Shown in pieces: positions 34,095 to 60,977 of a DNA stretch of 64,000 nt (position 1 is its first letter; every line of letters starts with the position of its first letter). The stretch is taken from positions 62,001 through 126,000 of the forward strand of contig NZ_JACYXE010000005.1 of NCBI RefSeq assembly GCF_014857905.1, in the 5' to 3' direction. Both the position numbers and the translations under genes were made by a program. The stretch is from Agilicoccus flavus. GTDB lineage: Bacteria > Actinomycetota > Actinomycetes > Actinomycetales > Dermatophilaceae. The notes beneath the pieces were generated by a model that was not told the DNA's origin, searched no databases, and saw only the letters and a program-made list of their open reading frames with translations.

Positions 34095-35639
34095 TCATCC
34101 GGCGAAGATCGTCACCGCCTCGGCGACGGACTCCGACAGGGCGACGACGCGGGATCGCAGCTCGCGGTAGGCGCGGACGTCGGCCTGCGAGGCGATCGTG
34201 GGTTCCGAGTCCTGCCCGGCGGGCAGGAGGGCGAGGCCGGCCAGCGGCGAGTCGGCGCGGCCGAGCCCGTACAGCGCGAGGGCCGCGGCGCCGAGGGCCG
34301 AGCCCTCCGCCCCACCGGTGACGGTCAGCGGCCGGGCGAGCGCGGAGGCGAGCACGACGCGCCACAGCGCGGAGCGGAACACCCCGCCCGTGGCGCGCAC
34401 GGACTCGACGGGGTGGACGGCGTCGAGGTCGTCGAGGATCGTCGACATCTGCAGCGCGACCCCCTCGATGGCGGCGCGCACGAAGTGGCCGCGGGTGTGC
34501 GAGCGGCGCACGCCGAGGTACGCGCCCGGCAGGTCGGGGTTCCACAGGGGGGCCCGCTCGGCGAGCAGGTACGGAAGCATGACGAGCCCGTCGCACCCGA
34601 CGGGCACGGAACGCGCCATCGACAGCAGCTCGGCGTCGACATGCGCGTCCTCCTGCCCCGCCCGCGCCTTGAGCAGGTCGCGAGCGAAGACGTCGCCGCA
34701 CCAGCGGACGACGACGCCGCCGTTGCTCACGGCGCCCCCGACGACCCACGTCTGCTCGGTGAGGGCGTAGCAGAACAGGCCGCCGCCGTGGTCGACGACC
34801 GGCCCGTCGACGGCCATCCGCAGCGCGCCGCTCGTGCCGAGGGAGAGCCCGACCACACCGGGCGTCAGCGCGCCGGTGCCGAGGTTGCCGAGGGGTCCGT
34901 CGCCGGCGCCGAGCACCACCCCCGTGGCCGTCGGCAGCCCGATGCGGGCGGCGACGGACCGGCTCAGCCCGAGCGCGGAGGTGGTCGGCAGCACGGGCGG
35001 GAGCTGCTCGTACTCGACGCCGGCGAGCTCGAGCGCGGTCGGGTTCCAGTCGCGGGTCGTCAGGTCGAGCAGGCCGGTGCCCGACGCGCACGACAGCTCG
35101 GTGGCGAGCGTGCCGGTCAGCGCCTGGATGATCCAGTCCTTGAGCCCGATCCAGCTCGTCACCTTCGCGCACAGCTCGGGCTCGTTCCGGCGGAACCACA
35201 TGAGCTTCGCCAGCGGCGAGAACGAGTGAACCGGCGTCCCCGACACGCGGTGCAGCTCGGCGGCGCGGGGGTCGGCGCGCAGCTCGCGGGCGATGTCGCC
35301 GGCCCGCGAGTCGGCCCACGTGAGCAGCGGCGTCAGGGGGCGACCGCCGGGCCCGAGGCCGATGAGCCCGTGCATCGCCGAGCTGAGCGAGATGGCGACG
35401 ACCTTCGCGCCGCCGGCCGCCTCCGCGGCCTCCGAGAGGGAGGCCATCACGGCGGCGAGCACGACCTGCGGGTCCTGCACCTCCCATCCGGGCTTGGGGT
35501 GCAGCAGCGGGTACTCGCGGACGACGGTGTGCCGCCAGGACGAGTCGATGCCGAACGCCGACGCCTTCGCGGCGGTCGTGCCGACGTCCAGGCCGATGAC
35601 GACCTCGGCGGGAGGCAGGACCACGTCGTCTTCGCTCAT
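34095..35639 (-). CDS. gntK: gluconokinase, FGGY family
   Basis: This FGGY carbohydrate kinase of 514 residues should phosphorylate D-gluconate to 6-phosphogluconate. It has the N-terminal phosphate loop VIGLDVGTTAAKASAF at about 14-29 and SSAMHGLIGLGPGGRPLTPL at about 83-102. The segments SGTPVHSFSPLAKLMWFRRN near 131 and SCASGTGLLDLTTRDWNPTA near 170 are characteristic of GntK-type FGGY kinases rather than xylulokinase. LSLGTSGALRMAVDGPV near 262 and TGGVFRSALWRVVLA near 421 follow. The ATG overlaps the uxuB stop by 4 nt, so it is the last gene of uxaC-uxuB-gntK. A gluconate kinase there makes sense if mannonate is converted to gluconate by the LarA homologue at 50168. Confidence 0.85.
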   Translation of the reverse strand: MSEDDVVLPPAEVVIGLDVGTTAAKASAFGIDSSWRHTVVREYPLLHPKPGWEVQDPQVVLAAVMASLSEAAEAAGGAKVVAISLSSAMHGLIGLGPGGRPLTPLLTWADSRAGDIARELRADPRAAELHRVSGTPVHSFSPLAKLMWFRRNEPELCAKVTSWIGLKDWIIQALTGTLATELSCASGTGLLDLTTRDWNPTALELAGVEYEQLPPVLPTTSALGLSRSVAARIGLPTATGVVLGAGDGPLGNLGTGALTPGVVGLSLGTSGALRMAVDGPVVDHGGGLFCYALTEQTWVVGGAVSNGGVVVRWCGDVFARDLLKARAGQEDAHVDAELLSMARSVPVGCDGLVMLPYLLAERAPLWNPDLPGAYLGVRRSHTRGHFVRAAIEGVALQMSTILDDLDAVHPVESVRATGGVFRSALWRVVLASALARPLTVTGGAEGSALGAAALALYGLGRADSPLAGLALLPAGQDSEPTIASQADVRAYRELRSRVVALSESVAEAVTIFAG

Positions 35640-37081
35640 GTCGCCGATTCTCTCCCGTTCAGCTCCTCCGCGAGGGCGAACACCTCCTGCGACAAGGCGC
35701 GCGCGTCCTCGCCGTCGAAGCCGAGGTGCGCGACGACCGCCGAGGCGGCCTGACGCAGCGGGCCCGCGACGAGCGGGGCGAGCGTGTCGGCCTTCGGGTC
35801 GGTCACGGGCGCGCCGACGCCGCGCAGGTGCAGCAGCCACGCGGCCACGACGCGGGAGGCCGCCGTCGTCGGCTCCCCCGCGGCGCGGGCGGCGCGCAGG
35901 ACGGGCACGATCCGGATGGGCAGCTTCTGGCTGCCGTCGGAGGCGATCTGCGCGAGCAGGTGGCGGATGCGCGGGTTCTCGTACCGCTCGACCAGGGCGG
36001 CGCGGTACGCGTTCACCTCGTCGGCTTGCAGATCGAGATGGCCGCCGGCGAGGTCCCACCACGCCTCGACCCACCCGCGCACCTGCGGGTCGGCGATCGC
36101 GTCCGCGACGGTCGCGTGGCCGAGGATCGTCGCCGCGTACGCCATGAGCGAGTGGGAGCCGTTGAGGAGCCACAGCTTGCGCGTCTCGAAGGGGGTGATG
36201 TCGTCGACGAAGCGGGCGCCCGCGTCCTCCCAGGCGGGCCGGCCCGCGGCGAACTCGCCCGCGAGCACCCACTCGGTGAACGGCTCGGTGACGACGAGGG
36301 CGGGGTCGTCGACGCCCCCGCCCTCACCGCCCCCCACGACGCCGGCCGCGTCTCCGTCCACCTCGCCGCCACTCGCGAGGGCCGCGCGGTCCTCGTCCGT
36401 CGTCCGCGGGGTGATCCGGTCGACCATCGTCGTCACGACGGCGATGTTCTCGTCGATCCACGCGGCGAGGTCCTCGTCGACCGCGTCGGCGAGGTCGAGG
36501 ACGACGGCGCGGACCATCTCGCCGTTGTCGGGCACGTTGTCGCACGGCACGAGGGTGATGGGGCCGGCGCCGGCGGCGCGGCGCGCGGCGAGCCCGGCCA
36601 CGAGGCGCCCCGGCGCGGTCCGCACGTCGGCGCGCGGGTCGGCGGCGAGCGCCTCGATGTCGGCGGCCACCTCGGGGTCGTCGCGGTCGAGGCCACCCTC
36701 GGGCCCGCGGCGGTAGCCGGCCTCGGTGATGGTGCTCGTGACGAGGACGACCGCCGGGTCGGCGAGGTGGCCGCGCCACGCCTCGAGGTCGTCGCCGGGA
36801 TGGACGGCGGACAGCGACGAGATCACCTCGGTCCGGTCGCCGTCGGCCGCGCGGATCGCGAGGGTGTAGAGGCCGTCGGAGGGGGCGAGGTCCTCCGCGA
36901 CGGCCGGGGAGCGGCCCGTGAACGCGGCGATGCCCCACTCGCCGGCGTCGCCGGCGTGCTGCGTGTACCAGGCCTGGTGGGCGCGGAAGAAGTTGCCGGC
37001 GCCGAGGTGGACGTGGCGGACGGGGGCGGCGCGGCGGCCGTCGGTGGCGCGGGACAGGCGGCGGGACGTCGTGGGGCTCAC
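35636..37081 (-). CDS. uxuB: fructuronate reductase (mannitol dehydrogenase family)
   Basis: This NAD-dependent polyol dehydrogenase family enzyme of 481 residues is expected to reduce D-fructuronate to D-mannonate. Motifs are the nucleotide-binding HLGAGNFFRAHQAWYTQHAG at about 25-44, VPCDNVPDNGEMVRAVV near 178-194, MVDRITPRTTDED near 220, and the catalytic Lys/Asn/His region ETRKLWLLNGSHSLMAYA near 295-312. A Gly/Asp/Glu-rich insertion (GGEVDGDAAGVVGGGEGGG) at about 238-256 is unusual for the family. The GTG start overlaps the uxaC stop (GTGA), and the stop overlaps gntK. The uxaC partner supports the fructuronate assignment over mannitol. Confidence 0.88.
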   Translation of the reverse strand: MSPTTSRRLSRATDGRRAAPVRHVHLGAGNFFRAHQAWYTQHAGDAGEWGIAAFTGRSPAVAEDLAPSDGLYTLAIRAADGDRTEVISSLSAVHPGDDLEAWRGHLADPAVVLVTSTITEAGYRRGPEGGLDRDDPEVAADIEALAADPRADVRTAPGRLVAGLAARRAAGAGPITLVPCDNVPDNGEMVRAVVLDLADAVDEDLAAWIDENIAVVTTMVDRITPRTTDEDRAALASGGEVDGDAAGVVGGGEGGGVDDPALVVTEPFTEWVLAGEFAAGRPAWEDAGARFVDDITPFETRKLWLLNGSHSLMAYAATILGHATVADAIADPQVRGWVEAWWDLAGGHLDLQADEVNAYRAALVERYENPRIRHLLAQIASDGSQKLPIRIVPVLRAARAAGEPTTAASRVVAAWLLHLRGVGAPVTDPKADTLAPLVAGPLRQAASAVVAHLGFDGEDARALSQEVFALAEELNGRESAT

Positions 37082-38490
37082 AGCTTGAACACCTTTCGGG
37101 GCTGGTCAACGACGAGGGCGCGGGCGATGTCGGCGGCCTCGTCCTCGGCGAGTCGGTGGTCGACGACGAGTTCGGCGAGGTGTCCGGCGTCGAGGCGCCT
37201 CGCCATGTCGTGCCGGGCGGGGATGGAGCAGAACGCGCGGGTGTCGTCGATGAACCCGCTCGTGCGGGTGAACCCGGCCGACTCGGTGACGGCCCGGCGG
37301 AAGCGGCGGATCGCGTCGGGCGCGTCGATGAACCACCACGGCGCGCCGACGTACAGGGCGGGGTAGAACCCGGCGAGCGGGCCGAGCTCCCGGGAGTACA
37401 CGGTCTCGTCGATGGTGAACACGACGAGTTTCAGGTTCGGATGCGTGCCGTACCGCGCCAGCAGCGGCTGCAGGGCCCGGGTGGCCTCGACGGCCGTGGG
37501 GATGTCGACGCCGACGTCCGCGCCGTACGCCTCGAACGTCCCGGGATGGTGGTTGCGGGCGACGGCCGGGTGCAGCGTCATCGTCAGCCCGTCGTCGCAG
37601 CTCATCCGCGCCATCTCGGCGAGCATGTGCCGCTGCAGGGCGCGGTGCTGCGCGGGGGTCGCGCTCCCGGCGCGGGCGGCGGCGTAGACCCGCCGCACCT
37701 CGGCGTCGTCGAGGACGTCGGTGCGCAGGTCGGCGTGGGAGTGGTCGGTCGAGACGGCGCCGTGGGCCCGGAAGTGGGCGCGGCGGTTCTCCATGGCGGT
37801 GACCCAGCCGGCCCAGTCGCCGGTGTCCGCGCCGGCCGCCTTGGCGAGGGCGTCGGTGAGCGCGTTCCAGTCGGGGCGGCCGGGCTCGAGGAACCGATCG
37901 GGTCGGAACGTCGGCGCGACCCGGGTGCGCACGGCCGGGTCGGCGGCGATGGCCGCGTGGTCGGCGAGGTCGCCGAGCGGGTCGTCGGTCGTCGCGAGGA
38001 CCTCGATGTCGAACGCCTCGAGCAGCGCCCGCGGCCGGCTCTCGGGGCGGGCGATCCAGGCGGCGATCCGGTCGTAGAGGCGGTCGGCGTTGTCGGCGTC
38101 CGGGCGTTCGTCGATGCCGAAGATGCCGGCGAACTCGTCCTCCAGCCAGTACCGGACCGGCGTCCCCGCGTACACGCCCCAGTGCTCGCAGAGCAGCCGG
38201 AAGGCGCGCCGGGAGGCGGCCTCGTCGAGGTCGCCCTGCCCGACGCCGAGGTCGGCCAGAGGCACCCCCGAGGCGTGCATGAGCCGGTTGACGTAGTGGT
38301 CGGGGGTGATGAGCAGCGACGTCGGGTCGCGGAACGGGGTGTCGTGGGCGATCCAAGCCGGCGGCACGTGCCCGTGCGGGGAGATGATCGGCAGGTCGCG
38401 CACGTGCTCGTACAAGCGCCGCGCCACCTCCCGCGTGCCGGGGTCGGGCGGCAGGAGCCGGTCGGGGTGGAGCGTCAGCGGAGCCGTCAT
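37078..38490 (-). CDS. uxaC: glucuronate isomerase
   Basis: UxaC isomerises D-glucuronate to D-fructuronate (and galacturonate to tagaturonate). The 470-residue amidohydrolase-superfamily protein has the metal-binding ISPHGHVPPAWIA at about 36-48, DPTSLLITPDHYVNRLMHA near 55, YWLEDEFAGIFGI near 113, EVLATTDDP near 168 and SGFIDDTRAFCSIPARHDMA near 424, all typical of UxaC. The ATG at 38490 is chosen; another in-frame ATG lies 9 nt upstream. It is the first gene of the uxaC-uxuB-gntK unit, each junction a 4-nt overlap, with a GGCAAC direct repeat 41 bp upstream. Confidence 0.95.
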   Translation of the reverse strand: MTAPLTLHPDRLLPPDPGTREVARRLYEHVRDLPIISPHGHVPPAWIAHDTPFRDPTSLLITPDHYVNRLMHASGVPLADLGVGQGDLDEAASRRAFRLLCEHWGVYAGTPVRYWLEDEFAGIFGIDERPDADNADRLYDRIAAWIARPESRPRALLEAFDIEVLATTDDPLGDLADHAAIAADPAVRTRVAPTFRPDRFLEPGRPDWNALTDALAKAAGADTGDWAGWVTAMENRRAHFRAHGAVSTDHSHADLRTDVLDDAEVRRVYAAARAGSATPAQHRALQRHMLAEMARMSCDDGLTMTLHPAVARNHHPGTFEAYGADVGVDIPTAVEATRALQPLLARYGTHPNLKLVVFTIDETVYSRELGPLAGFYPALYVGAPWWFIDAPDAIRRFRRAVTESAGFTRTSGFIDDTRAFCSIPARHDMARRLDAGHLAELVVDHRLAEDEAADIARALVVDQPRKVFKL

Positions 38491-38530
38491 GCCCCGCATC
38501 GTCGTCGGCGGGCGTCGGCGCGGCCAATCG

Positions 38531-38546
38531 GTTGCCGGATGTTGCG
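38531..38546. promoter_or_regulatory. GGCAAC direct-repeat operator, uxaC operon
   Basis: GTTGCC-GGAT-GTTGCG on the plus strand, i.e. CGCAAC-N4-GGCAAC read towards uxaC, with a 10-bp period. The adjacent CAATCGGTTG (38525-38534) is also a LacI-type palindrome. Four other sites of the same plan occur upstream of sugar-acid genes. The remaining 38547-38827 holds nothing else I recognise. Confidence 0.65.
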
Positions 38547-38827
38547 GCGTCACCGGCGCGCGCTCAGGCCCCTGCCGTGGTCCCACTCGACTCGGGATCC
38601 GGGGCGGCGAGGGGTCCCGCCACGACGCCCCTCCTGCCGATCCGCCTGTCGCGGAGCGGGATCCGCCATGCAGGACAACCGACCAAGTTTTTCTGGACGA
38701 AAGACTGATACAGCCGTCCTGGACGCCGATGAGAGGGGTGTCCGGCGGGAACCGACCCAGCGGAACGCGACACCGAGCACGACCCGGAGGCAGGGGGCTT
38801 CCGGTGACACCGAACAGGGGACACACC

Positions 38828-39245: not shown

Positions 39246-39492
39246 CGCCGTCATGGGGGACCCCGCCCTCGTCGACGTGACGCGGAGCGGCGCTCGGCCT
39301 CGTCCCCGGCCCGGGCCTCGGGGTCAGATCGGGGCAGGGGCGGGCACCGAACACGACCGAACAGCGCTCACCGCGACACGGGGAGCAGGTCGATGTCGCA
39401 CCTGGGACCCGTGGCCCGGAACAGGCCTCCCCCGTCACGCCGACGGCGACTCTGTCGCGGCGACCCGATCGACGCTCGGGCCGCACGCGGGT

Positions 39493-39508
39493 GGCAACTC
39501 GTGGCAAC
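39493..39508 (+). promoter_or_regulatory. GGCAAC direct-repeat operator, isomerase/dehydrogenase operon
   Basis: GGCAAC-TCGT-GGCAAC, 40 bp upstream of the first ATG of the four-gene operon. Both half-sites are perfect. Confidence 0.7.
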
Positions 39509-39548
39509 CCCTCCCCCGGGCGGGCCGAGCCGTGATGACGTGGCGAGC

Positions 39549-40391
39549 ATGTGGACCCTGTCCGGCTTCGCCGACGAGATCGATCCCGACTTCGCGACCC
39601 AGTGCGCGCACGTGCGCGACCTGGGGCTGAGTCACCTCGAGTTCCGCAGCGCGTGGGGGGTGAACGTCCTCGACCTCGACGCCGAGCAGCGGGCCCGGGC
39701 GCGCGGCATCCTCGCCGAGCACGGGCTGGCCGTCAGCTCGATCGGCTCCCCCATCGGCAAGATCGGCATCACCGAGGCGTTCGAGCCCCACCTGGCGCGC
39801 TTCCGCCACTGCCTCGACGTGGCGGAGGAGTTCGAGGCCCCCTTCATCCGGCTCTTCTCCTTCTTCGTGCCCGAGGGCGACGACCCGGCCTCGCATCGCG
39901 ACGAGGTGATCGCCCGGTCGCGGGCCTTCGCGCAGGCCACGCACGACCACCCCTACGGGTCGCGGGTGACGCTGCTGCACGAGAACGAGAAGGAGATCTA
40001 CGGGGACACCCCCGTGCGCTGCCTCGACCTCATCGAGAGAGTCGCCGACCCGGCCTACCGCCTCACCTGGGACCCGGCGAACTTCGTCCAGGTGGGCGTG
40101 GCCCGCCCGTTCGACGAGGGGTACGCGGCCCTGCGCCCGCACGTCGTCTACCTGCAGCTCAAGGACGCCGTGGCCGGCTCCGGCGAGGTCGTCCCCTCCG
40201 GGGAGGGCGACGGTCAGGTCCGCGAGACGATCCGCGCCCTGGCCGCCGACGGCTTCGACGGCTTCCTCTCGCTCGAACCGCACCTCGCCACCCAGGACAG
40301 CTTCGGCGGGTTCTCGGGCGCCGACGAGTGGAGCCGCGCCCACGCCGCGCTCGTCGGCATCCTGCGCGAGGAAGGGATCGAGTACCGATGA
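39549..40391 (+). CDS. sugar phosphate isomerase/epimerase-like TIM barrel
   Basis: An AP-endonuclease-2-fold TIM barrel protein of 280 residues, the family of sugar isomerases, epimerases and keto-sugar dehydratases. It starts MWTLSGFADEIDPDF, with GLSHLEFRSAWG near 28-39 and metal ligands expected in LLHENEKEIYGDT near 143, LTWDPANFVQVG near 171, VVYLQLKDAV near 195 and FLSLEPHLA near 233. It starts the four-gene operon and overlaps the next gene by 4 nt (ATGA). The substrate is unknown; being paired with a Gfo/Idh/MocA dehydrogenase suggests action on an oxidised (keto) sugar or glycoside. Confidence 0.85.
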   Translation: MWTLSGFADEIDPDFATQCAHVRDLGLSHLEFRSAWGVNVLDLDAEQRARARGILAEHGLAVSSIGSPIGKIGITEAFEPHLARFRHCLDVAEEFEAPFIRLFSFFVPEGDDPASHRDEVIARSRAFAQATHDHPYGSRVTLLHENEKEIYGDTPVRCLDLIERVADPAYRLTWDPANFVQVGVARPFDEGYAALRPHVVYLQLKDAVAGSGEVVPSGEGDGQVRETIRALAADGFDGFLSLEPHLATQDSFGGFSGADEWSRAHAALVGILREEGIEYR

Positions 40392-50113: not shown

Positions 50114-50129
50114 GCCAACCCGCGGCAAC
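50114..50129 (+). promoter_or_regulatory. GGCAAC direct-repeat operator, larA homologue
   Basis: GCCAAC-CCGC-GGCAAC, 38 bp upstream of the ATG at 50168; one mismatch in the first half-site. Confidence 0.6.
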
Positions 50130-50167
50130 GCCTTGCCCGCGCGGCCGGCCCGTGGCTGACTGGCGCC

Positions 50168-51490
50168 ATGAGCGACGCGAGCATCCCGTGCACCCTGGTC
50201 GGCGGCCCCCACGAGCACGTGTCGGCGGAGGCGCTCGACGTCCTCGTCGCTGGGTCGCTGGCCGGGCTCGACCTCGACGGAAAGAGGGTGTGCCTCGTCG
50301 TCCCCGACGGGACCCGGTCGTGCCCGCTGCCGCTGCTGGTGGGCACGCTGCACCGTCACCTGCACGAGCGCGTCGCCGAGCTCACGGCGGTCATCGCCCT
50401 CGGCACCCACTCCTACATGGAGCCCGACGAGATCGACCGGCTGTTCGGCGTCGGCGGCACCGCCCCCGACGGCTCGCCGCAGCCGGCGACGCTCGCCGAC
50501 GCCTACCCCGGGATGCGGGTCGTCAACCACGAGTGGGCCGACCCCGCGCAGCTCGTGCAGGTCGGGCGCATCGAGGCCGACCGCATCCACGAGCTGTCGG
50601 GAGGGCGGCTGCGCCGCGGGGCCGACATCGTCATCAACCGGCACGTCGTCGAGGCCGACGTCTCGATCGTCGTCGGGCCGGTGTTCCCGCACGAGGTCGT
50701 CGGCATCTCGGGCGGCAACAAGTACTTCATCCCCGGCGTCGCCAGCCAGGAGTTCATCGACATGACCCACTGGGTCGGGGCGCTCATCACGAGCTACGAC
50801 ATCATCGGCACGACCGGGATCACCCCGGTGCGGGCCATGATCGACGAGGGCTCCGCGCTCATCCCCACGCAGCGGCTCGCCCTGTGCTGCGTCGTCGAGT
50901 CGGGGACCGGCGAGCTGGAGGCCGCCGCGTTCGGCACGACGCAGGACGCGTGGGCCGCGACGGCGCAGATCGCCGCGCAGACGCACGTCACCTACGTCGA
51001 CGAGCCGTTCCGGCGCGTGCTGGCGGTCATGCCGACGCGCTACGAGGACATCTGGACCGCCGCGAAGGGCTTCTACAAGACCGAACCGGCCGTCGCCGAC
51101 GGCGGCGAGGTCGTCATCTACGCCCCGCACATCACCGAGGTCTCCGAGACCCACCCCGAGATCTACGAGATCGGCTACCACTGCCGCGACTACTTCGTGG
51201 CCCAGTGGGAGGCGTTCGAGCACATCCACTGGGGCGTCCTCGCCCACTCCACGCACATGCGCGGGCAGGGCACCTACGACGCCGCGACGGGGCAGGAACG
51301 CGCGCGCATCGGGGTCACGCTCGCGACCGCCATCCCCCGCGAGACGTGCGAGCGGATCGGCGTCGGCTACCGCGACCCGGCCGACATCGACGTCGACGCG
51401 TGGCGCGCCGAACCGGACGTGACGGTCATCGACAACGCCGGCGAGATCCTCTTCCGCGTCCGGGACACATCGGCCCCGTCCACCTCGTGA
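50168..51490 (+). CDS. LarA-superfamily nickel-dependent hydroxyacid epimerase
   Basis: A 440-residue LarA homologue. LarA enzymes carry a nickel-pincer nucleotide (NPN) cofactor bound to a lysine and invert the alpha-carbon of 2-hydroxyacids by hydride transfer. The DxTR motif is seen in VVPDGTRSCPLP near 43-54, a catalytic His in ALGTHSYMEPDEI near 78-90, and the cofactor-binding Lys region VVGISGGNKYFIPGVASQEF near 178-197. LarA homologues vary in substrate, and D-gluconate 2-epimerase is one known activity. Here the operator, UxaC, UxuB and GntK nearby, and larE/larB at 59-61 kb point to D-mannonate/D-gluconate epimerisation (inferred). Lactate racemisation is the alternative. Confidence 0.88.
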   Translation: MSDASIPCTLVGGPHEHVSAEALDVLVAGSLAGLDLDGKRVCLVVPDGTRSCPLPLLVGTLHRHLHERVAELTAVIALGTHSYMEPDEIDRLFGVGGTAPDGSPQPATLADAYPGMRVVNHEWADPAQLVQVGRIEADRIHELSGGRLRRGADIVINRHVVEADVSIVVGPVFPHEVVGISGGNKYFIPGVASQEFIDMTHWVGALITSYDIIGTTGITPVRAMIDEGSALIPTQRLALCCVVESGTGELEAAAFGTTQDAWAATAQIAAQTHVTYVDEPFRRVLAVMPTRYEDIWTAAKGFYKTEPAVADGGEVVIYAPHITEVSETHPEIYEIGYHCRDYFVAQWEAFEHIHWGVLAHSTHMRGQGTYDAATGQERARIGVTLATAIPRETCERIGVGYRDPADIDVDAWRAEPDVTVIDNAGEILFRVRDTSAPSTS

Positions 51491-51542: not shown

Positions 51543-52568
51543 TCACGACGTGGCTCGGGGGGCGGCCGGCGTGGCGGTCGACTCGCGCACCACGAGGCGC
51601 GTGGGGACGACGACCGGGTCGGGGCGCTCCCACGTCGCGCCCCGGTGCAGCGCGATGACGTTGCGGACGGCGGCCTGGCCGAGGGACTCCAGGGGCGCGC
51701 CGACCGTCGTCAGGCCGGGCGTGATGAGGTCGGCCGCGAAGATGTCGTCGAAGCCGACGACGCTCACGTCGCGCGGCACCTCCACGCCCAGCCGCGCGAG
51801 GCCGCGGATGATGCCGATGGCGACGAGGTCGTTGTAGGCGAGCACCGCCCCGAGCCCCCGCTCCACGACCGCCTGCGCCGCCGCCTCCCCACCCTCGACG
51901 AACGGCCGGAACGGGCCGAGGCGGACGTCGGCGATCTCGAGCTCGTGGCACGCCTCCCGCACGGCCCGCCAGCGGGTCCCGTCCGCCCACGACGCCTCCG
52001 GGCCGGCCGCGTACCCGATGCGCGTGTGCCCGAGGGTGGCGAGGTGCTCGACGGCGCGGCGCACCCCGCGGGCCGTGTCGGGCACGACCGACGGGAGGCC
52101 GGACACGTGCCGGTTGAGCACGACGACGGGCAGCGTCTTGCCGATCGTGCGCAGGTCGGTGTCCGAGAGGCGAGAGCTCGTGATGACGAGACCGTCGACG
52201 AGGGGCAGGGTGCGCTCGAGCATCTGCCGCTCGATCTCGTCCGACTCCTGCGCGTCGGCGAGAAGCATCGTGAACCCCGCCGCGGCGGCGGCGTGCTCGG
52301 CCCCGCGGATGATCGGGAAGTACACGGGATTGGCGACGTCGGAGATCGCGAGCGCGATCGTGTCGGTCCGCCGCGCGCGCTCGAACCGCTCGACGGTCTC
52401 GCTGCGATACCCGAGCCGGTCGGCGACCTCCCGGATCGACCGCGCCGTCCGGGAACTGACCCGGCCGGGCCGGCTGAAGGCCCGCGACACCGTCGACGCG
52501 CTCACACCCGCCTCGCGCGCGACGTCGTAGATCGTCACGCGCGCCGTCCCACCGGGAGCCGCAGGCAT
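51543..52568 (-). CDS. LacI-family transcriptional regulator
   Basis: A 341-residue regulator with the LacI helix-turn-helix VTIYDVAREAGVSASTVSRA at about 11-30, hinge region, and a periplasmic-binding-like effector domain (IALAISDVANPVYFPIIRGA near 66, VVGFDDIFAADLITPGLTTV near 279). It lies between the larA homologue and the glucuronide transporter and is the only sugar-type regulator in the window, so it is the natural candidate to control the glucuronide genes. Whether it binds the GGCAAC direct repeats or the CAATCGGTTG palindrome is unknown. A TATAGT-N7-ATG arrangement marks a leaderless start. Confidence 0.93.
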   Translation of the reverse strand: MPAAPGGTARVTIYDVAREAGVSASTVSRAFSRPGRVSSRTARSIREVADRLGYRSETVERFERARRTDTIALAISDVANPVYFPIIRGAEHAAAAAGFTMLLADAQESDEIERQMLERTLPLVDGLVITSSRLSDTDLRTIGKTLPVVVLNRHVSGLPSVVPDTARGVRRAVEHLATLGHTRIGYAAGPEASWADGTRWRAVREACHELEIADVRLGPFRPFVEGGEAAAQAVVERGLGAVLAYNDLVAIGIIRGLARLGVEVPRDVSVVGFDDIFAADLITPGLTTVGAPLESLGQAAVRNVIALHRGATWERPDPVVVPTRLVVRESTATPAAPRATS

Positions 52569-52677: not shown

Positions 52678-54204
52678 TCAGACCTGCGGCGCGTCGACGA
52701 TCTTCCCGTCACCGCCGATGAGGTGCCCGGTCTGCGCCTTGCGCGTCTCCGTCTCGTTGCGGATGCGGCGGAACACGTCGTCGGTCAGGGGGTACTTCCA
52801 GAAGACGAGCATCGCGATGACCGCGACGATGGCGGGGATGAGGCCGATCGTGCCCTTGATGGCGAGCATCGCCGACTCGGGCTGCTCGGGGGCGCCGGCG
52901 ACGTATCCGGCGATGTAGAGCATCCACCCGCCGATGAGGCCGCCCAGGCTCTGCGTGAGCTTGCGGGTGAAGGAGTAGAGCGCGTACGTCGCACCCTCGG
53001 TGCGGTGCCCGTTCTTCCACTCGCCGTACTCGACCGTGTCGGCCTCGAGACCGAACATGGCGACGTTGATGATGCCGGCGCCCACGCCCTTGATCGCGAG
53101 GAAGAGGAGCGCCAGGAAGATCGCGCCGACGGGGGTCAAGAAGAGCGCGACCCCGCCGACGACGGTGAACACGCCGCAGTACTGGAACAGGTTCTTCTTG
53201 CCGAACCTTTCGATGAACCAGGGCAGGAACGGGGTGACCGCGAGCTGCACACCGGAGTTCACGAGGACGATCCACGTCGCGTAGGAGGTGTCGCCGAGGA
53301 AGTACCGCGCGTAGTAGGCGGAGATGGGGCCCACGGCGTAGACGCCGGTGAGGTAGAAAAGGCTCGCCAGGCAGAGGATCTGGAGGGGCCGGTTCGCCTT
53401 GAGGGCGCCGAAGGTCTCCCGCAGCGTCACCCGCGCCTCGGTGCGGACGACGGCCTCCTTGCAGTTGAGGAAGACCATGAGGAAGCACAGGCTGCCGAGC
53501 AGCACGAACCACAGGGTGATCTGGGTGAAGACGCCCTGCATGTCGGCCTGGAGCTGCGCGAGCTGCGCCTGCGCCGCGGCGTCCCCCGCCTTGGCCGGTC
53601 CGGCGACCGACTTGATCTGGTTCTGGATCGCCGCGATGCGCGGCGCGATGACGGCCGTGAGGAACACCCCGGCGGCGGCGCCGCCCCACAGGCGCCAGGC
53701 GACGAGCTTCCCGCGCTCCTTGACGGACTGCGTCATCGCCGACGCGAGCGAGCCGTAGGGGATGTTGACCATCGAGTAGAAGAACCCGAGCAGCGCGTAC
53801 GTGAGGTAGGCGTACAGCAGGGCCGGTCCCTGGTTGCCGTTCCACGCCTGTTCCTTCAGCCCGTCCGGCACGTAGAACGTGAGGAACGACAGGAACATCA
53901 GGGGGACGGCGCAGAAGAGGATGAAGGGGCGGAACTTGCCCCACCGGGTCATCGTCCGGTCGACGATGCGCCCCGCGATGAGATCGGCGAACGCGTCCCA
54001 GAGGCGCACGACGAAGAACATCGTGCCGATGGCAGCAGCGCCGAGCCCCGCCACGTCGGTGTAGTAGAAGAGCAGCCAGGTGACGGTCAGGTTGAACGCC
54101 AGGTTGCACCCGAAGTCGCCCAGCATGTAGCTGAAGAGCGTCTTCGGGGTCATCTTCTTGAGCGCACCGTGGTCGTCACGTGGCGTTACGGCATCAGTAC
54201 TCAT
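52678..54204 (-). CDS. glucuronide/sugar:cation symporter (GPH family, GusB-like)
   Basis: A 508-residue, 12-span transporter of the glycoside-pentoside-hexuronide family. It starts MSTDAVTPRDDHGALKKMTP, then LFSYMLGDFGCNLAFNLTVT near 24-43, the family DxxxG/RxxxR loop GRIVDRTMTRWGKFRPFILF near 78-97 and NIPYGSLASAMTQSVKERGK near 156-175. The conserved FGLEADTVEYGEWKNGHRTE is near 382. A hydrophilic Ala/Gln-rich loop (AGDAAAQAQLAQLQADMQ) lies near 215-232. It is divergent from a beta-glucuronidase across two GGCAAC direct repeats, so glucuronides are the likely cargo. A hairpin follows its stop. Confidence 0.9.
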   Translation of the reverse strand: MSTDAVTPRDDHGALKKMTPKTLFSYMLGDFGCNLAFNLTVTWLLFYYTDVAGLGAAAIGTMFFVVRLWDAFADLIAGRIVDRTMTRWGKFRPFILFCAVPLMFLSFLTFYVPDGLKEQAWNGNQGPALLYAYLTYALLGFFYSMVNIPYGSLASAMTQSVKERGKLVAWRLWGGAAAGVFLTAVIAPRIAAIQNQIKSVAGPAKAGDAAAQAQLAQLQADMQGVFTQITLWFVLLGSLCFLMVFLNCKEAVVRTEARVTLRETFGALKANRPLQILCLASLFYLTGVYAVGPISAYYARYFLGDTSYATWIVLVNSGVQLAVTPFLPWFIERFGKKNLFQYCGVFTVVGGVALFLTPVGAIFLALLFLAIKGVGAGIINVAMFGLEADTVEYGEWKNGHRTEGATYALYSFTRKLTQSLGGLIGGWMLYIAGYVAGAPEQPESAMLAIKGTIGLIPAIVAVIAMLVFWKYPLTDDVFRRIRNETETRKAQTGHLIGGDGKIVDAPQV

Positions 54205-54446: not shown

Positions 54447-56252
54447 ATGCTCCGCCCCCAGGACAGCGCCACCCGTGAACGCAAGAACCTCGACGGAGTG
54501 TGGGACTTCCGCCTCGACACCGGCGCCGTCGGGCGCGACGAGCGCTGGTTCGCCGCCCCGCTCGACGACGCGCGCCCGATGGCCGTGCCCGCGAGCTTCA
54601 ACGACCTCGTCACGGACTCGAAGACGCGCGAGTTCTTCGGCGACATCTGGTACCAGCGCACCGTCCGCGTCCCGCGCGGCTGGGCCGGTGAGCGGATCCT
54701 CGTCCACCTCGAGTCGGCGACGCATCGGGCGACGGTGTGGGTCGACGACGTCGAGGTCGTCTCGCACGAGGGCGGCTACCTGCCCTTCGAGGCCGACGTC
54801 ACCGACCACGTGACCGCCGGGAGCGAGTTCCGGCTCACCGTCTGCGTGAACAACACCCTGTCGTTCCGCTCCATCCCGCCGGGCGTCATCGAGGACACCC
54901 CTGCCGGCCGCACGCAGCTCTACTGGCACGACTTCTTCAACTACGCCGGCCTGCACCGGAGCGTCTGGCTGTCCGCGGTCCCCGCCGACCGCGTCGACGA
55001 CGTCACGGTCGTCACCGGGTTCGCCGACGACGCGCGCACCACCGGGACGGTCGACGTCACGGTCGCGACCACCGGCGACGGCGGCGACGTCGAGCTCGTC
55101 CTGCGCGACCCCGCGGGCCGCACGACGGCGATGGCGACCGCACCCGTGACGGCCGGCCCGACCCGGCTCGAGGTGCCGGACGTGCACCCGTGGGGCATCG
55201 GGGACGGATACCTCTACGACCTCGAGGTGCGCCTGCTCGGCGAGGGGGGCGACCTGCTCGACAGCTCGCACCTCAAGGTCGGCGTGCGGACGTTCGAGGT
55301 CGACGGCACGCGGCTGCTGCTCAACGGGGAGCCGGTGCACCTCACGGGCTTCGGCATGCACGAGGACCACGTCACGGTCGGCAAGAAGCACGACCCGGCG
55401 CTGATGATCCGCGACTTCGAGCTGCTCCGGTGGATCGGCGCGAACAGCTTCCGCACCTCCCACTACCCGTACAGCGAGGACGTCCTCGACCACGCCGACG
55501 CGGCCGGCGTCCTCGTCATCGACGAGACCCCGGCCGTCGGGCTCAACATGGGCCTCGGCGGCGGGATCTTCGGCGGGCAGGGGTACACCACCTTCTCCCC
55601 CGAGACGATCGGCGACGAGACCCGCGAGGTGCACGCGCAGGTCATCCGCGACCTCGTCGCCCGCGACAAGAACCACCCGAGCGTCGTCATCTGGTCGATC
55701 GCCAACGAGCCCGAGAGCGAGACCCAGGGCGCCGAGGACTACTTCCGGCCCCTCTTCGACGTCGCCCGCGAGGCGGACCCCACCCGCCCGGTCGGCTTCG
55801 TCAACGTCATGCTCGCGCCGCACGGGCAGTGCCGGGTCACCCAGTTCGCCGACCTCGTCATGCTCAACCGCTACTACGGCTGGTACGTCCACACCGGCGA
55901 CCTCGCCGGCGCCGAGCGCGCGATGCGTGAGGAGCTCGGGCTGTGGGCCGGCGACGGCAAGCCCGTGCTCATGACCGAGTACGGCGCCGACACCTACCCC
56001 GGCCTGCACCAACTGCCCGCGCGGCCGTGGAGCGAGGAGTACCAGACCGAGCTGCTCGACATGCACCACCGGGTCTTCGACGACATCGACGCGATCGTCG
56101 GGGAGCAGATGTGGAACTTCGCCGACTTCGCGACGACGTCGGGGATCATGCGGGTCGGCGGCAACAAGAAGGGCGCGTTCACCCGCGACCGCGAGCCCAA
56201 GGCCGTCGCCCACCTGCTCCGGCACCGCTGGACTGCGGGGCGCGACCAGTAG
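54447..56252 (+). CDS. uidA: beta-glucuronidase (GH2)
   Basis: This glycoside hydrolase family 2 enzyme of 601 residues releases glucuronate from beta-glucuronides. It begins MLRPQDSATRERKNLDGVWD and has the sugar-binding and immunoglobulin-like domains, then the TIM barrel. Catalytic residues are seen as the acid/base Glu in WSIANEPESE near 419 and the nucleophile in VLMTEYGADTYPG near 514. The glucuronidase-specific NKK motif that recognises the carboxylate is in VGGNKKGAFTRDREPKA near 573, which separates it from beta-galactosidases. There is no signal peptide, so it acts on imported glucuronides. GAGAGGA precedes the ATG. Confidence 0.95.
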   Translation: MLRPQDSATRERKNLDGVWDFRLDTGAVGRDERWFAAPLDDARPMAVPASFNDLVTDSKTREFFGDIWYQRTVRVPRGWAGERILVHLESATHRATVWVDDVEVVSHEGGYLPFEADVTDHVTAGSEFRLTVCVNNTLSFRSIPPGVIEDTPAGRTQLYWHDFFNYAGLHRSVWLSAVPADRVDDVTVVTGFADDARTTGTVDVTVATTGDGGDVELVLRDPAGRTTAMATAPVTAGPTRLEVPDVHPWGIGDGYLYDLEVRLLGEGGDLLDSSHLKVGVRTFEVDGTRLLLNGEPVHLTGFGMHEDHVTVGKKHDPALMIRDFELLRWIGANSFRTSHYPYSEDVLDHADAAGVLVIDETPAVGLNMGLGGGIFGGQGYTTFSPETIGDETREVHAQVIRDLVARDKNHPSVVIWSIANEPESETQGAEDYFRPLFDVAREADPTRPVGFVNVMLAPHGQCRVTQFADLVMLNRYYGWYVHTGDLAGAERAMREELGLWAGDGKPVLMTEYGADTYPGLHQLPARPWSEEYQTELLDMHHRVFDDIDAIVGEQMWNFADFATTSGIMRVGGNKKGAFTRDREPKAVAHLLRHRWTAGRDQ

Positions 56253-56255: not shown

Positions 56256-56262
56256 TTCGAGC

Positions 56263-57440: not shown

Positions 57441-57874
57441 GCGCACCGGTGCGCATCACGTCGATCGTCGAGGGCTACGGCGAGGTCGCCGGCCTGCCGG
57501 TGCTGTTGCGGCGGCTCGCAGCCGAGCTGGGTCACTACCCCGACGTCTCGAAGCCCCATCGGATCAGGCGAACCGAGTTCGTCACCGGGGCCGTCGCCAA
57601 GGCGCATCGTCTGCAGCGGCAGCGCGCCGGGGCCGGCGGCATCGTCGTCGTGCTGTGCGACGCGGACGACGCCGAGGACGCCGAGTCGCCGCGGAACGCC
57701 AAGAAGCAGCTCGAGCAGGTCATGACCGAGTCGTACACGGAGACCATCCATCAACCCGCGTTCAGCGCCGTGATGGATCTGGAGGCGGCCCGCTCCCGCT
57801 CCCGCTCGTTCCGACGATTCTGCGATCGTCTCCACACCGCCCTGCAAGCCCTGCCCACCGACGAAAGGCCGTGA
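57437..57874 (+). CDS. DUF4276 family TOPRIM-like protein
   Basis: A 145-residue protein with ITSIVEGYGEVAGLPVLLRR near 7-26, IVVVLCDADDAEDAESPR near 68-85 and SRSFRRFCDRLHTALQALP near the C-terminus. The Glu of VEGYGE and the DAD acidic motif fit the TOPRIM-like fold of DUF4276, as in OLD-type nucleases. The ATG overlaps the ATPase stop (ATGA), so the two formed a translationally coupled module. With the ATPase broken, its activity is doubtful. It ends 4 nt before gnd. Confidence 0.8.
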   Translation: MSAPVRITSIVEGYGEVAGLPVLLRRLAAELGHYPDVSKPHRIRRTEFVTGAVAKAHRLQRQRAGAGGIVVVLCDADDAEDAESPRNAKKQLEQVMTESYTETIHQPAFSAVMDLEAARSRSRSFRRFCDRLHTALQALPTDERP

Positions 57875-57878
57875 CCCC

Positions 57879-59480
57879 ATGAGCACCGACGAACCCGGCA
57901 CCGGCGACGCGCCCGCGGCGGAGGAACCGCAGGCGGCGCCCGAGAGCCAGAGCGACCAGGAGAAGGCCGCCGCGACCGAGACCGGCGCCGACCACCGGGC
58001 CTCCCCCGCCCGGGAGGGCGACACCGGCACCGACGCGGGCGAGAGCGGCGAGCTCGCCCAGGTCGGCGTCGTCGGCATGGCCGTCATGGGCAGCAGCCTC
58101 GCGCGCAACATCGCCCGCCACGGCTACCGCGTGGCCCTGTTCAACCGGACGCACGCGCGCACCGAGAAGGTCGTCGCCGACCACGGCGGCGAGGGCAGCT
58201 TCGTGCCCGCCGAGAACCTCGAGGACTTCGTCGCCTCCCTCGAGCGGCCGCGCCGGATCATCATCATGGTCCAGGCCGGCAAGGGCACCGACGCGACGAT
58301 CGAGGCCCTCGTCCCCCTCCTGCAGGAGGGCGACATCGTCGTCGACGGCGGCAACGCCTTCTACGAGGACACGCGCCGCCGGGAGCGGGAGCTGCGCGAG
58401 CACGGCCTGCACTTCGTCGGGGCCGGCATCTCCGGCGGCGAGGTCGGCGCGCTCGAGGGGCCGTCGATCATGCCGGGCGGCTCGACGGAGTCGTACGAGG
58501 CGCTCGGCCCGATCCTCGAGGACATCTCGGCGCACGTCGGCGACGAGCCGTGCTGCGCCTACATCGGCACCGACGGCGCCGGGCACTTCGTCAAGATGGT
58601 GCACAACGGCATCGAGTACGCCGACATGCAGTTCATCGGCGAGGCGTACGAGCTGCTCAAGGCCGCCGGTCTGAGCACCGACGAGATGGCCGACGTCTTC
58701 GAGACGTGGAACACCGGCGACCTCGACTCCTACCTCATCGAGATCACCGCGCAGGTGCTGCGGCAGCGGGACGCGAGGACGGGCGAGCCGCTCGTCGACG
58801 TCATCGTCGACGCCGCCGGCATGAAGGGCACCGGTACGTGGACCGTGCAGAGCGCCCTGTCGCTCGGGGTGAGCGTCAACGCGATCGGCGAGGCCGTGTT
58901 CGCGCGCGCCGCGTCCTCCGACGCGCAACTGCGCACGGCCGCCCAGGGCGCGCTGTCGGGGCCGGACCGCTCGCTGCCCGACCTCGGCGACGGACGCGAC
59001 CAACTCGTCGACGACATCCGGCGGGCCCTGTGGAGCAGCAAGGTCGTCGCCTACGCCCAGGGGCTCGACCTCATCCGCTCCGCGGCGCAGGAGTACGGCT
59101 GGGACATCGACATCGCGCAGGTCGCGAAGATCTGGCGCGACGGCTGCATCATCCGGGCCAAGCTCCTCGAACGGATCCGCGGCGAGTACGCCGCGAACGA
59201 CCTGACGACGCTGCTCGAGGCCCCGAGCGTCAAGGCCGAGCTGGCCGACAGCCAGGACGCGTGGCGCCGGGTCGTCGCGCAGGCCGTCACGGCCGGCGTC
59301 CCGATCCCCGGTTTCTCGGGGGCCCTGGCCTACTACGACGCGATCCGCGCGCCGCGCGTCAACGCGGCGCTCACCCAGGGGTTGCGCGACTACTTCGGCG
59401 CGCACACCTACCGCCGCGTCGACGCCGACGGCTCGTTCCACACGCTGTGGTCGGGCGACCGGTCGGAGGTGTCGGTCTGA
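57879..59480 (+). CDS. gnd: 6-phosphogluconate dehydrogenase, decarboxylating
   Basis: Gnd oxidises 6-phosphogluconate to ribulose 5-phosphate and CO2 with NADP. The 533-residue protein has an unusual ~60-residue acidic, Ala/Glu-rich N-terminal extension before the Rossmann motif VGVVGMAVMGSSLARNIARH at about 62-81. FVGAGISGGEVGALEGPSIM near 180, FVKMVHNGIEYADMQFIGEA with catalytic Lys/His/Asn near 237, and NDLTTLLEAPSVKAEL near 445 are typical of the full-length enzyme. It is translationally linked to larE and larB, which is unexpected for an ordinary pentose-phosphate gene and suggests a shared pathway with the LarA homologue. Confidence 0.94.
   Translation: MSTDEPGTGDAPAAEEPQAAPESQSDQEKAAATETGADHRASPAREGDTGTDAGESGELAQVGVVGMAVMGSSLARNIARHGYRVALFNRTHARTEKVVADHGGEGSFVPAENLEDFVASLERPRRIIIMVQAGKGTDATIEALVPLLQEGDIVVDGGNAFYEDTRRRERELREHGLHFVGAGISGGEVGALEGPSIMPGGSTESYEALGPILEDISAHVGDEPCCAYIGTDGAGHFVKMVHNGIEYADMQFIGEAYELLKAAGLSTDEMADVFETWNTGDLDSYLIEITAQVLRQRDARTGEPLVDVIVDAAGMKGTGTWTVQSALSLGVSVNAIGEAVFARAASSDAQLRTAAQGALSGPDRSLPDLGDGRDQLVDDIRRALWSSKVVAYAQGLDLIRSAAQEYGWDIDIAQVAKIWRDGCIIRAKLLERIRGEYAANDLTTLLEAPSVKAELADSQDAWRRVVAQAVTAGVPIPGFSGALAYYDAIRAPRVNAALTQGLRDYFGAHTYRRVDADGSFHTLWSGDRSEVSV
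59465..59479 (+). promoter_or_regulatory. Shine-Dalgarno deciding a CTG start for larE
   Basis: GGAGG at 59465-59469, 7 nt spacer, then CTG at 59477 overlapping the gnd stop TGA. No ATG, GTG or TTG lies near in the larE frame; the nearest alternative is GTG at 59447. Confidence 0.6.
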
Positions 59481-60301
59481 GCGCCCTCCTGGACCGGGTC
59501 GCCGCCCACCTGCGCGGCGCGGGCCGGCTCGGCGTCGCCTACTCCGGCGGCGTCGACTCGGCCACGCTGCTCGCCGTCGCCGTCCGCACGCTCGGGGCCG
59601 ACCGGGTCGTCGCGCTGCTCGGGGTCTCGCCGAGCCTGCCGGCGCACGAACGGGCCGCCGCCCACGAGGTCGCCGCCGACCTCGGGGCGACGGTCGTCGA
59701 GGTGAGCACGCACGAGGGCGACAACCCCGCCTACGTCGCGAACGGCCCCGACCGCTGCTTCCACTGCAAGGACGAGCTGTTCACCGTCATCTCCCGCGAG
59801 GTCGTGGCCACCCACCGGCTCGACGCCGTGGCCTACGGCGAGAACGCCGACGACGCGCTCCGGCCCGATCGGCCGGGGGCCCAGGCCGCGACCGACCACC
59901 GCGTGCTGCGCCCCCTCGCCGACGCCGGCCTGAGCAAGGTCGACGTGCGGGCGCTCGCCCGCGAGCTGGGGTTGGGCGTCGCCGACAAGCCCGCGGCGCC
60001 GTGCCTCGCCTCCCGGATCCCGCACGGCGAGCCGGTGACGCCGGCCAAGCTCGCCCAGGTCGAGGCGGCCGAGGGCGTGCTGCGGGCGTGCGGGTTCACC
60101 GACGGGCGGGTCCGCCACCACGGCGACGTCGCCCGCCTCGAGCTGCCGGCCGCCGAGCTCGCCCGCGCCGCCGAGCCGGACGTCGCGGCGCGGCTCGTCG
60201 CCGGCGTGCGCGCGGCCGGGTTCCGGTTCGTCGCGCTCGATCTCGCCGGCATCCAGTCCGGCGCCTTCACCCTCCCCCTCGTCGACGTGACGCATGGGTG
60301 A
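59477..60301 (+). CDS. larE: ATP-dependent sacrificial sulfur transferase LarE
   Basis: LarE activates the pyridinium biscarboxylic acid mononucleotide with ATP and donates sulfur from its own cysteine (or an Fe-S cluster) to build the nickel-pincer cofactor of LarA. The ~274-residue protein has the PP-loop LGVAYSGGVDSATLL near 18-32, DRCFHCKDELF near 92-102, AVAYGENADD near 116 and PCLASRIPHGEPVTPAKL near 174-191. The last motif holds the sulfur-donating Cys. The likely start is a CTG (a GTG at 59447 is the alternative). It is coupled to gnd upstream and overlaps larB by 8 nt. Identity is strong; the link to the LarA homologue at 50 kb is inferred. Confidence 0.92.
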   Translation: MSALLDRVAAHLRGAGRLGVAYSGGVDSATLLAVAVRTLGADRVVALLGVSPSLPAHERAAAHEVAADLGATVVEVSTHEGDNPAYVANGPDRCFHCKDELFTVISREVVATHRLDAVAYGENADDALRPDRPGAQAATDHRVLRPLADAGLSKVDVRALARELGLGVADKPAAPCLASRIPHGEPVTPAKLAQVEAAEGVLRACGFTDGRVRHHGDVARLELPAAELARAAEPDVAARLVAGVRAAGFRFVALDLAGIQSGAFTLPLVDVTHG

Positions 60302-60977
60302 GGCGGCTCCCGGCGACCCGTCGCCCGGGATGCCGCCCGAGTTCGAGCTCGACGTCGACCGGTACGACCGGCGCGGCTACGCCGAGGCCGTCTACTGCGC
60401 GGGCAAGACGCCGGAGCAGGTGGGGGCCATCGCCGGGGCCGTGCGCGACGCCCCGGGAGCCACGCTGTTCACCCGCGCCGACCCGGAGCACGCGCGAGCC
60501 GTGCGGGCCGCCCTGCCGGGCGTCTTCGAGGACCCCGCCGCGCGCCTGCTCGCCTGGCCGCCGCAGCCCCCGGAGCCGACGGGCGGGCTCGTCGTCGTCG
60601 CGTGCGCCGGCACCTCCGACCTGCCGGTCGCGCGCGAGGCGTTCCACACCGTGCGCTACCTCGGGCGGCGGGCCGAGCTCGTCGCCGACGTCGGGGTCGC
60701 GGGCCTGTCCCGCATCCTCGACCGCGTCGCGGAGCTGCGACGCGCGCGGGCGATCGTCGTCGTCGCGGGCATGGACGGCGCGCTGCCGGGCGTCGTCGCC
60801 GGACTCGTCTCGGCGCCGGTCGTCGCGGTGCCGACGTCGGTCGGGTACGGCGCCGCGTTCGCCGGTCTCGCTCCCCTCCTGACGATGCTCAACGCGTGCG
60901 CCCCCGGCGTCGGCGTCGTCAACATCGACAACGGATACGGCGGCGGGCACCTCGCGGCGCAGATCGCCGCGCCCTGA
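60294..60977 (+). CDS. larB: nickel pincer cofactor biosynthesis protein LarB
   Basis: LarB carboxylates nicotinic acid adenine dinucleotide, the first step to the NPN cofactor, and is related to PurE. The 227-residue protein has EAVYCAGKTPEQVGAIAGAV near 36-55, VVVACAGTSDLPVAREAFHT near 103-122, DVGVAGLSRILDRV near 136, VAGMDGALPGVVAGL near 163 and VAVPTSVGYGAAFAGL near 181. VGVVNIDNGYGGGHLA follows near 208. These match LarB closely. LarC, the nickel insertase that completes the set, is not in the window. It overlaps larE by 8 nt, giving gnd-larE-larB. Confidence 0.93.
   Translation: MGEAAPGDPSPGMPPEFELDVDRYDRRGYAEAVYCAGKTPEQVGAIAGAVRDAPGATLFTRADPEHARAVRAALPGVFEDPAARLLAWPPQPPEPTGGLVVVACAGTSDLPVAREAFHTVRYLGRRAELVADVGVAGLSRILDRVAELRRARAIVVVAGMDGALPGVVAGLVSAPVVAVPTSVGYGAAFAGLAPLLTMLNACAPGVGVVNIDNGYGGGHLAAQIAAP

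Follow-up and report, generated by a model that had tools for sequence, protein, structure and literature searches.

A route that turns D-mannonate into D-gluconate and feeds the pentose phosphate pathway was proposed by Rodionova in 2012 for Thermotoga, as told in PMC6978723 and PMC7583248, with homologues in Lactobacillus, Acidobacterium and Terriglobus according to PMC6978723. The epimerisation of D-mannonate to D-gluconate was demonstrated in 2020 for GntE1 from Corynebacterium glutamicum and GntE2 from Thermotoga maritima (PMC7583248), and a eukaryotic GntE was added by PMC11770544. In PMC7583248, the group of GntE1 has a uronic-acid gene context, and a hexonate substrate is hypothesised for group 18. 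Here we describe a locus in a stretch of 64,000 nucleotides from Agilicoccus flavus (contig NZ_JACYXE010000005.1, positions 62,001 to 126,000; "the window" is this whole stretch), in which a larA homologue and genes for its nickel cofactor accompany genes of glucuronide degradation. With a probability of roughly 0.8, this locus degrades glucuronides by epimerising mannonate to gluconate, which then enters the pentose phosphate pathway. The idea itself is older; what is new is its actinobacterial glucuronide version, the coupling to cofactor genes, the predicted operator and a repeated swap of enzymes suggested below. No title on this actinobacterial pathway was found in the open literature searched, and since most subscription papers lie outside that search, this negative is not proof of novelty.

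The glucuronide locus and its predicted pathway

Gene names in the window rest on domain and curated-family (NCBIfam) profile searches, and the start codons of the locus genes were picked by eye. The genes are the following:

34095..35639, minus strand: FGGY-family kinase, probable gluconokinase (gntK), a mannonate kinase being also possible; best NCBIfam model gntK_FGGY
35636..37081, minus strand: uxuB, probable fructuronate reductase (mannonate oxidoreductase), with the N- and C-terminal Mannitol_dh domains
37078..38490, minus strand: uxaC, glucuronate isomerase (NF002794, 525.8 bits, cut-off 387)
50168..51490, plus strand: larA homologue, probable D-mannonate/D-gluconate 2-epimerase (GntE-like), predicted to depend on the nickel-pincer cofactor; Lar_N domain, 4NAR top in sequence and fold
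51543..52568, minus strand: lacI, regulator of the LacI family (LacI and Peripla_BP_3 domains) that probably represses the regulon; 47 of the 80 related loci have an orthologue
52678..54204, minus strand: GPH-family symporter, probable glucuronide transporter (TIGR00792, 394.2 bits, cut-off of 231.35 passed)
54447..56252, plus strand: uidA, beta-glucuronidase of glycoside hydrolase family 2 (NF007538, 828.6 bits, cut-off 544)
57879..59480, plus strand: gnd, NADP-dependent 6-phosphogluconate dehydrogenase (NF006765, 695.4 bits, cut-off 413)
59477..60301, plus strand: larE, sacrificial sulfur transferase for the nickel-pincer nucleotide (NPN) cofactor (TIGR00268, 270.4 bits, cut-off 150)
60294..60977, plus strand: larB, NPN cofactor biosynthesis (NF033503, 261.4 bits, cut-off 175)

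The profile searches thus recover every gene that an earlier note on this DNA, made without database searches, had named (the GPH transporter, uidA, uxaC, uxuB, the FGGY kinase, larA, gnd, larE and larB), and the two overlap-linked runs that it described, uxaC-uxuB-gntK and gnd-larE-larB, are read directly from the sequence. On the minus strand, uxaC and uxuB overlap by 4 nt (37078-37081), as do uxuB and gntK (35636-35639, the ATG of gntK lying over the uxuB stop); on the plus strand, gnd and larE overlap by 4 nt (59477-59480) and larE and larB by 8 nt. The larA gene faces lacI, which lies downstream of the symporter gene, and uidA is divergent from the latter. The distance from uxaC to larA is 11.7 kb, occupied by genes for a TIM-barrel protein, a glutamate-type dehydrogenase and a catalase and by two genes of the MerR family. 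The symporter scores below the cut-off of the glucuronide transporter model PRK09848 (445.3 bits for 528).

From the sequence, we infer the substrate, the order of steps and the regulation of the locus as follows. The GPH symporter would import glucuronides, which UidA would cleave; UxaC would convert D-glucuronate to D-fructuronate, and UxuB the latter to D-mannonate. The LarA/GntE nickel-pincer enzyme would then invert C2 to give D-gluconate, to be phosphorylated to 6-phosphogluconate by the FGGY gluconokinase and decarboxylated to ribulose 5-phosphate by Gnd. LarE and LarB, with the product of a nearby larC, would make the NPN cofactor, and a LacI-type repressor probably controls uxaC-uxuB-gntK and larA. 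We regard the epimerase as a probable substitute for mannonate dehydratase, a gene for which did not turn up in the genome.

This scheme resembles that of Thermotoga, in which GntE2 (4NAR, LarAH20) is likewise an epimerase of the LarA superfamily on a path from mannonate through gluconate to the pentose phosphate pathway, its gene being placed between those of fructuronate reductase and gluconokinase (PMC6978723). The two proteins share 31% identity in the fold alignment. In contrast to Thermotoga, the window locus serves glucuronides and includes uidA, gnd, larE and larB, and it has a LacI-type gene where Thermotoga has the GntR-type regulator UxaR (PMC7953866). Furthermore, Thermotoga, one of our control genomes, matches UxuA and 2-keto-3-deoxy-6-phosphogluconate (KDPG) aldolase, so that other mannonate exits exist there, whereas the genome of the window matches neither. 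GntE1 of C. glutamicum (LarAH19), like the window protein a LarA homologue from an actinobacterium, epimerises D-mannonate, and its group has a uronic-acid gene context (PMC7583248). In the control C. glutamicum genome, UxaC and LarC were matched and Lar_N and NF052594 were not, although GntE1 is reported from this species, pointing to a strain difference or a divergent sequence. Lactobacillus suebicus also combines a uronate isomerase, a fructuronate reductase, a kinase, an epimerase and 6-phosphogluconate dehydrogenase to reach the pentose phosphate pool, but begins at galacturonate and phosphorylates first, and its epimerase gene is not assigned (PMC6978723). Finally, UxaC and UxuB also open the isomerase (Ashwell) pathway, UxaC-UxuB-UxuA-KdgK-KdgA, and the variant of it that uses ManD; these differ from the window locus by a dehydratase and a KDPG aldolase that have no match in the genome of the window.

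Among solved structures, the LarA homologue is closest to GntE2

The LarA homologue matches Lar_N with 84.8 bits (cut-off 23.3). Compared by sequence with solved structures, it matches 4NAR, the T. maritima GntE2, with 190.3 bits over residues 39-432, and next a lactate racemase with 34.5 bits. An AlphaFold2 model built from 19 sequences has a mean predicted local distance difference test score of 88.8. A Foldseek search with this model returns 4NAR first (E 9.5e-41, template modelling score 0.77, 31% identity) and a malate racemase second (4.8e-23), and all 19 matches with E <0.001 are LarA-family chains. By sequence and by fold, the protein is therefore closer to GntE2 than to the lactate and malate racemases among solved structures, in agreement with the reading of the earlier note. 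Five LarA-type models match it, all of them below their cut-offs.

Cofactor-binding and catalytic residues were mapped by eye from the sequence alignment with solved structures, taking as reference R75, K184, H200, D72, H108, H174 and K298 of LarA (PMC7583248). Their counterparts R50, K185 and H201, as well as D47, H81, H175 and K300, are invariant across 15 sequences. The E-V/S loop that follows the catalytic His in GntE is present as H175-E176-V177, and helix 11 has W296, the E-V loop and the helix 11 Trp being reported for LarA groups 18-20 (PMC7583248). At the helix 14 A/V feature of GntE, G356 stands opposite N348 of GntE2 in a by-eye alignment in which the logo column is approximate. Two alignments were drawn from the clade of the window protein, named LarA-I: A1 holds 14 of 29 LarA-I relatives fetched as loci (without L005, which ends in a stop), and A2 holds 18 of the 80 loci named below (without L053, whose matched stretch contains a stop, and with the ends of L049 and L056 trimmed). 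Altogether, the protein is probably a D-mannonate/D-gluconate 2-epimerase.

Selenocysteine was considered for nine LarA matches flagged with an internal TGA and was rejected, as the alignments retained a stop in L005 and L019 only, and there in terminal position.

The genome offers no recognised mannonate dehydratase and holds the cofactor genes

The genome comprises 4,231,031 bases in 34 contigs and is rated 100% complete. UxuA, which the earlier note had not seen in the window, has no match genome-wide either (PF03786), while the same search is positive in 5 of 14 control genomes. KDPG aldolase (PF01081) also gives 0 matches genome-wide and is found in 8 of the 14 controls. ManD, of the enolase superfamily, can also dehydrate D-mannonate, and MR_MLE stretches of the genome were scanned for this reason: in 8 of the 11 (L120 in part), the ManD model reaches at best 65 bits for a cut-off of 550, and ManD has no match in the genome at E 1e-100. 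ManD had been the strongest alternative exit and was rejected, none of the 8 of 11 stretches scanned coming near the cut-off.

Lar_N has a single genomic match, the larA of the window. The earlier note had placed larC outside the window and would have taken its absence from the genome as refuting its reading; the only LarC match in the genome lies 3.1 kb past the window end (contig C30:129128-130393, minus strand), and its open reading frame passes both LarC models, so that larB, larC and larE are all present. There are two genomic matches to 6-phosphogluconate dehydrogenase, namely the window gnd and an NAD-type enzyme on contig 3; since the latter is of NAD type, the window gnd may act in the general pentose phosphate pathway as well.

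Conserved neighbourhoods and a common operator-like word

We inspected 80 named loci, the best 80 of at least 584 relatives confirmed in named genomes, many of these loci being cut by contig ends. They contain uxaC (53), uxuB (52), lacI (47), larE (32), larB (29), gnd (19), gntK (17) and uidA (17), and UxuA occurs at 0 of the 80. The linkage of uxaC with larA is borne out in relatives, the two being divergent neighbours in 39 of 80 loci, with 96-283 bases separating the aligned parts; larA faces lacI in 36 of 80. The Kribbella loci L068, L073, L084, L101, L109 and L110 carry a LarA-I orthologue with neither uxaC nor uxuB in 21 kb. At L035, a metagenome-assembled genome labelled Acidobacteria, LarA-I is 77% identical to that of the window and UxaC pairs with that of Ornithinimicrobium, which points to misbinning or transfer.

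An operator-like palindrome precedes both uxaC and larA in the window:

38523..38536, plus strand: GCCAATCGGTTGCC, 1 mismatch to GGCAANNNNTTGCC, 32 nt ahead of the chosen uxaC start
50124..50137, plus strand: GGCAACGCCTTGCC, which alone in the window matches GGCAANNNNTTGCC exactly, 30 nt ahead of the chosen larA start

With at most one mismatch, GGCAANNNNTTGCC has three sites in the window for 0.67 expected, the third lying inside lacI (52129). It is found, at the same tolerance, in 21 of 39 uxaC/larA intergenic regions, for an average of 0.155 and a maximum of 2 in mononucleotide shuffles, this enrichment being measured on the same set in which the word was noticed. Palindromes in general are not in excess in these regions (24 for 25.7). 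An exact site also stands shortly upstream of manD in 2 of 10 ManD loci inspected (L142 and L164). Because the word precedes both genes, uxaC and larA seem to be controlled together despite their separation, and the neighbouring LacI protein presumably binds the predicted sites.

A probable epimerase in the place of the dehydratase

We then compared 396 genomes of the order. Of these, 66 match the LarA query, 43 with LarA-I (>400 bits; G029, G131 and G040, which are fragments or below 100 bits, are omitted) and 20 more with a second clade, LarA-II. UxaC is found in 171 genomes, UxuA in 60 (56 above cut-off) and ManD above cut-off in 126. UxaC accompanies LarA-I in 41 of the 43 LarA-I genomes and UxuA in none of them.

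At the level of loci, 150 listed uxaC places were sorted by what lies within 20 kb (UxuA rows >100 bits without secondary fragments, ManD rows above cut-off): LarA-I at 30, UxuA alone at 20, ManD alone at 34, UxuA with ManD at 4, LarA-II alone at 7, LarA-II with UxuA at 1 and none at 54. None of the 30 LarA-I places has UxuA or ManD, for 11.8 expected if relatedness is ignored. Exclusion between LarA-I and ManD was also tried at genome level, where it fails; it holds at locus level only.

The accompanying genes differ as well. The earlier note had asked whether uxaC and gntK are linked where a LarA homologue occurs: gntK, gnd, larE and larB are found at 17, 17, 25 and 22 of the 53 LarA-I uxaC loci and at 0, 0, 0 and 0 of 26 dehydratase loci. 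The latter are 26 of 59 dehydratase-linked uxaC places, hand-picked (12 UxuA and 14 ManD; L134, with UxuA and LarA-II, and L141, with none, were omitted), and they were queried with the window proteins, so distant forms may escape, and flank lengths differ among loci. For LarA against gntK/gnd, Fisher's test gives 5e-8 (32/54 versus 0/26), uncorrected for kinship.

A quick, midpoint-rooted UxaC tree of 88 rows requires 11 label changes for a minimum of 3, which suggests that the enzyme acting after UxuB was exchanged repeatedly, although phylogenetically independent pairs are too few to give significance. Among the LarA-I-linked rows of this tree fall the sequences of L129-L133 as well as 20 of the 26 dehydratase-linked UxaCs. 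These comparisons suggest that a LarA epimerase replaces the usual dehydratase in several actinobacteria.

A second clade in the same slot

LarA-II corresponds to group 18, the "putative hexonate epimerase" NF052594, with 19 genomes above cut-off and 1 with a split gene, and is 25-27% identical to the LarA homologue of the window. UxaC is present in 20 of 20 LarA-II genomes, and in 8 of 20 the distance between LarA-II and a uxaC is at most 20 kb. Like the window protein, it stands next to uxaC in the company of uxuB and partly of the other genes: at L129-L133, where it is beside uxaC, uxaC and uxuB occur in 5 of 5 loci, gntK in 4, lacI in 3, gnd in 2 and larE-larB in 2. At L135 and L136, where it is away from uxaC, none of the remaining queried genes is present. 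In another phylum, a Catenovulum adriaticum plasmid carries in line on one strand uxaC, a TRAP transporter, a gluconokinase, a group-18 LarA (620.9 bits), larC, larE and larB, with no fructuronate reductase annotated in this stretch. In other genomes, LarA-II thus seems to take the slot that LarA-I takes here. In L133 (G266, contig C1:3465094-3466304), LarA-II is split over two reading frames, and the genome also has UxuA and ManD.

Alternative explanations and weight of the evidence

An unlikely alternative, but the one that survives best, is that phosphorylation comes first, the FGGY kinase acting on D-mannonate and LarA epimerising 6-phosphomannonate to 6-phosphogluconate, as in L. suebicus. 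The gene set alone fits either order of steps, and the window kinase is closest, among solved structures, to 3GBT, a gluconate kinase from a Lactobacillus (279 bits; runner-up 162.7), and misses the cut-off for curated gluconokinases. E. coli GntK belongs to another kinase family than the FGGY kinase of the window. Its reported inactivity on mannonate (cited in PMC6978723) and the use of unphosphorylated mannonate by the characterised GntE-type LarA relatives (PMC7583248) argue against this order, while both activities were found in L. suebicus extracts, for which a gluconokinase-like kinase is suspected by the authors (PMC6978723). It is equally doubtful that the LarA homologues of both distant clades are 6-phosphomannonate/6-phosphogluconate 2-epimerases and the missing genes of the orphan L. 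suebicus activity. If phosphorylation did come first, nickel-pincer enzymes would act on a phosphorylated sugar acid.

Considerably less probable is that the substrate of LarA is a different sugar acid, such as an aldarate or a hexonate derived from another sugar, while an unrecognised dehydratase consumes mannonate. The KM of GntE1, 120 mM, led the authors of PMC7583248 to suspect a different native substrate for it, one protein of the genome resembles glucarate dehydratase (726.9 bits, cut-off 828.7) and a TIM-barrel gene lies near uxaC; moreover, the stretch examined shows neither uxaC nor uxuB at 22 of the 80 LarA-I loci. Against this stand the searches for UxuA, ManD and KDPG aldolase, all negative, the ties of larA to uxaC by linkage, locus-level exclusion and a common operator-like word, and the presence of gntK and gnd at uxaC loci of the larA type, not of the dehydratase type. 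Least probable by far is an ordinary lactate or malate racemase in an accidental position, since, although the superfamily is the same and lar genes are often near LarA, the solved lactate and malate racemases reach at most 34.5 bits versus 190.3 for GntE2, the E-V loop behind the catalytic histidine and W296 are GntE-type, and the uronate gene context is conserved.

Several results nevertheless weigh against epimerisation of mannonate to gluconate as the general role of these loci. The LarA homologue misses the cut-off of the hexonate-epimerase model NF052594 (145.8 bits for 500), as does the FGGY kinase that of gntK_FGGY (361.7 bits for 648.55, a longer open reading frame having been scanned). 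UxuB matches the NCBIfam fructuronate reductase and D-arabinitol dehydrogenase models equally, at 245.1 bits, reaching neither cut-off; its closest solved structure is 4IM7, YdfI (237.5 bits), followed by mannitol dehydrogenase (220.8). ManD occurs elsewhere in 23 of the 43 LarA-I genomes, and L134 has UxuA, LarA-II, larE and larB together at one uxaC locus. No more than 17 of the 53 larA-type uxaC loci have gntK, and the same holds for gnd; there are 5 phylogenetically independent pairs for LarA against gntK/gnd, never opposed and never significant (80 of 88 rows, loci <14 kb omitted). Among the 22 LarA-I loci with neither uxaC nor uxuB, 11 have the full 21 kb. Finally, because a divergent berberine-bridge-like FAD oxidase adjoins larA at the Kribbella loci L073 and L109, the LarA-I clade may have other roles, or a different substrate in such loci.

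On balance, the proposal of the earlier note, that mannonate is epimerised to gluconate and then processed by GntK and Gnd, bypassing the 2-keto-3-deoxygluconate branch, gains support from the lack of UxuA, ManD and KDPG aldolase matches, the presence of larC and the uxaC-larA linkage, with mannonate as the predicted substrate. Such a pathway would give a reason for nickel-cofactor genes to sit in sugar-acid loci: a nickel-dependent epimerase would stand where other loci have mannonate dehydratase, accompanied by gluconokinase, gnd and cofactor genes. The route needs no KDPG aldolase and, judging by the cofactor use described in PMC6978723, would use NADH at UxuB and recover NADPH at Gnd. It would turn a Thermotoga-centred proposal into a testable pattern in culturable actinobacteria and would set LarA groups with an open native substrate, such as the hexonate group 18, in a physiological context. 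For this group, the NF052594-type genes next to uxaC-uxuB or within a gluconokinase-lar run (L129-L133 and L170) constitute context evidence for the hypothesised substrate.

Other genes in the window

The TIM-barrel protein encoded between uxaC and larA (39393-40391) has an AP_endonuc_2 domain; several ManD loci, as well as 12 of the 80 LarA-I loci, have a relative of it nearby. A pair resembling the HEC-01 anti-phage system (56263-57882 and 57437-57874) separates uidA from gnd. Residues 1-314 match positions 1-313 of the HEC-01A model, which has 399, with 384.2 bits, and HEC-01B is seen as pieces. The AAA frame of this pair seems interrupted past about residue 300, and it overlaps the second gene in a different frame.

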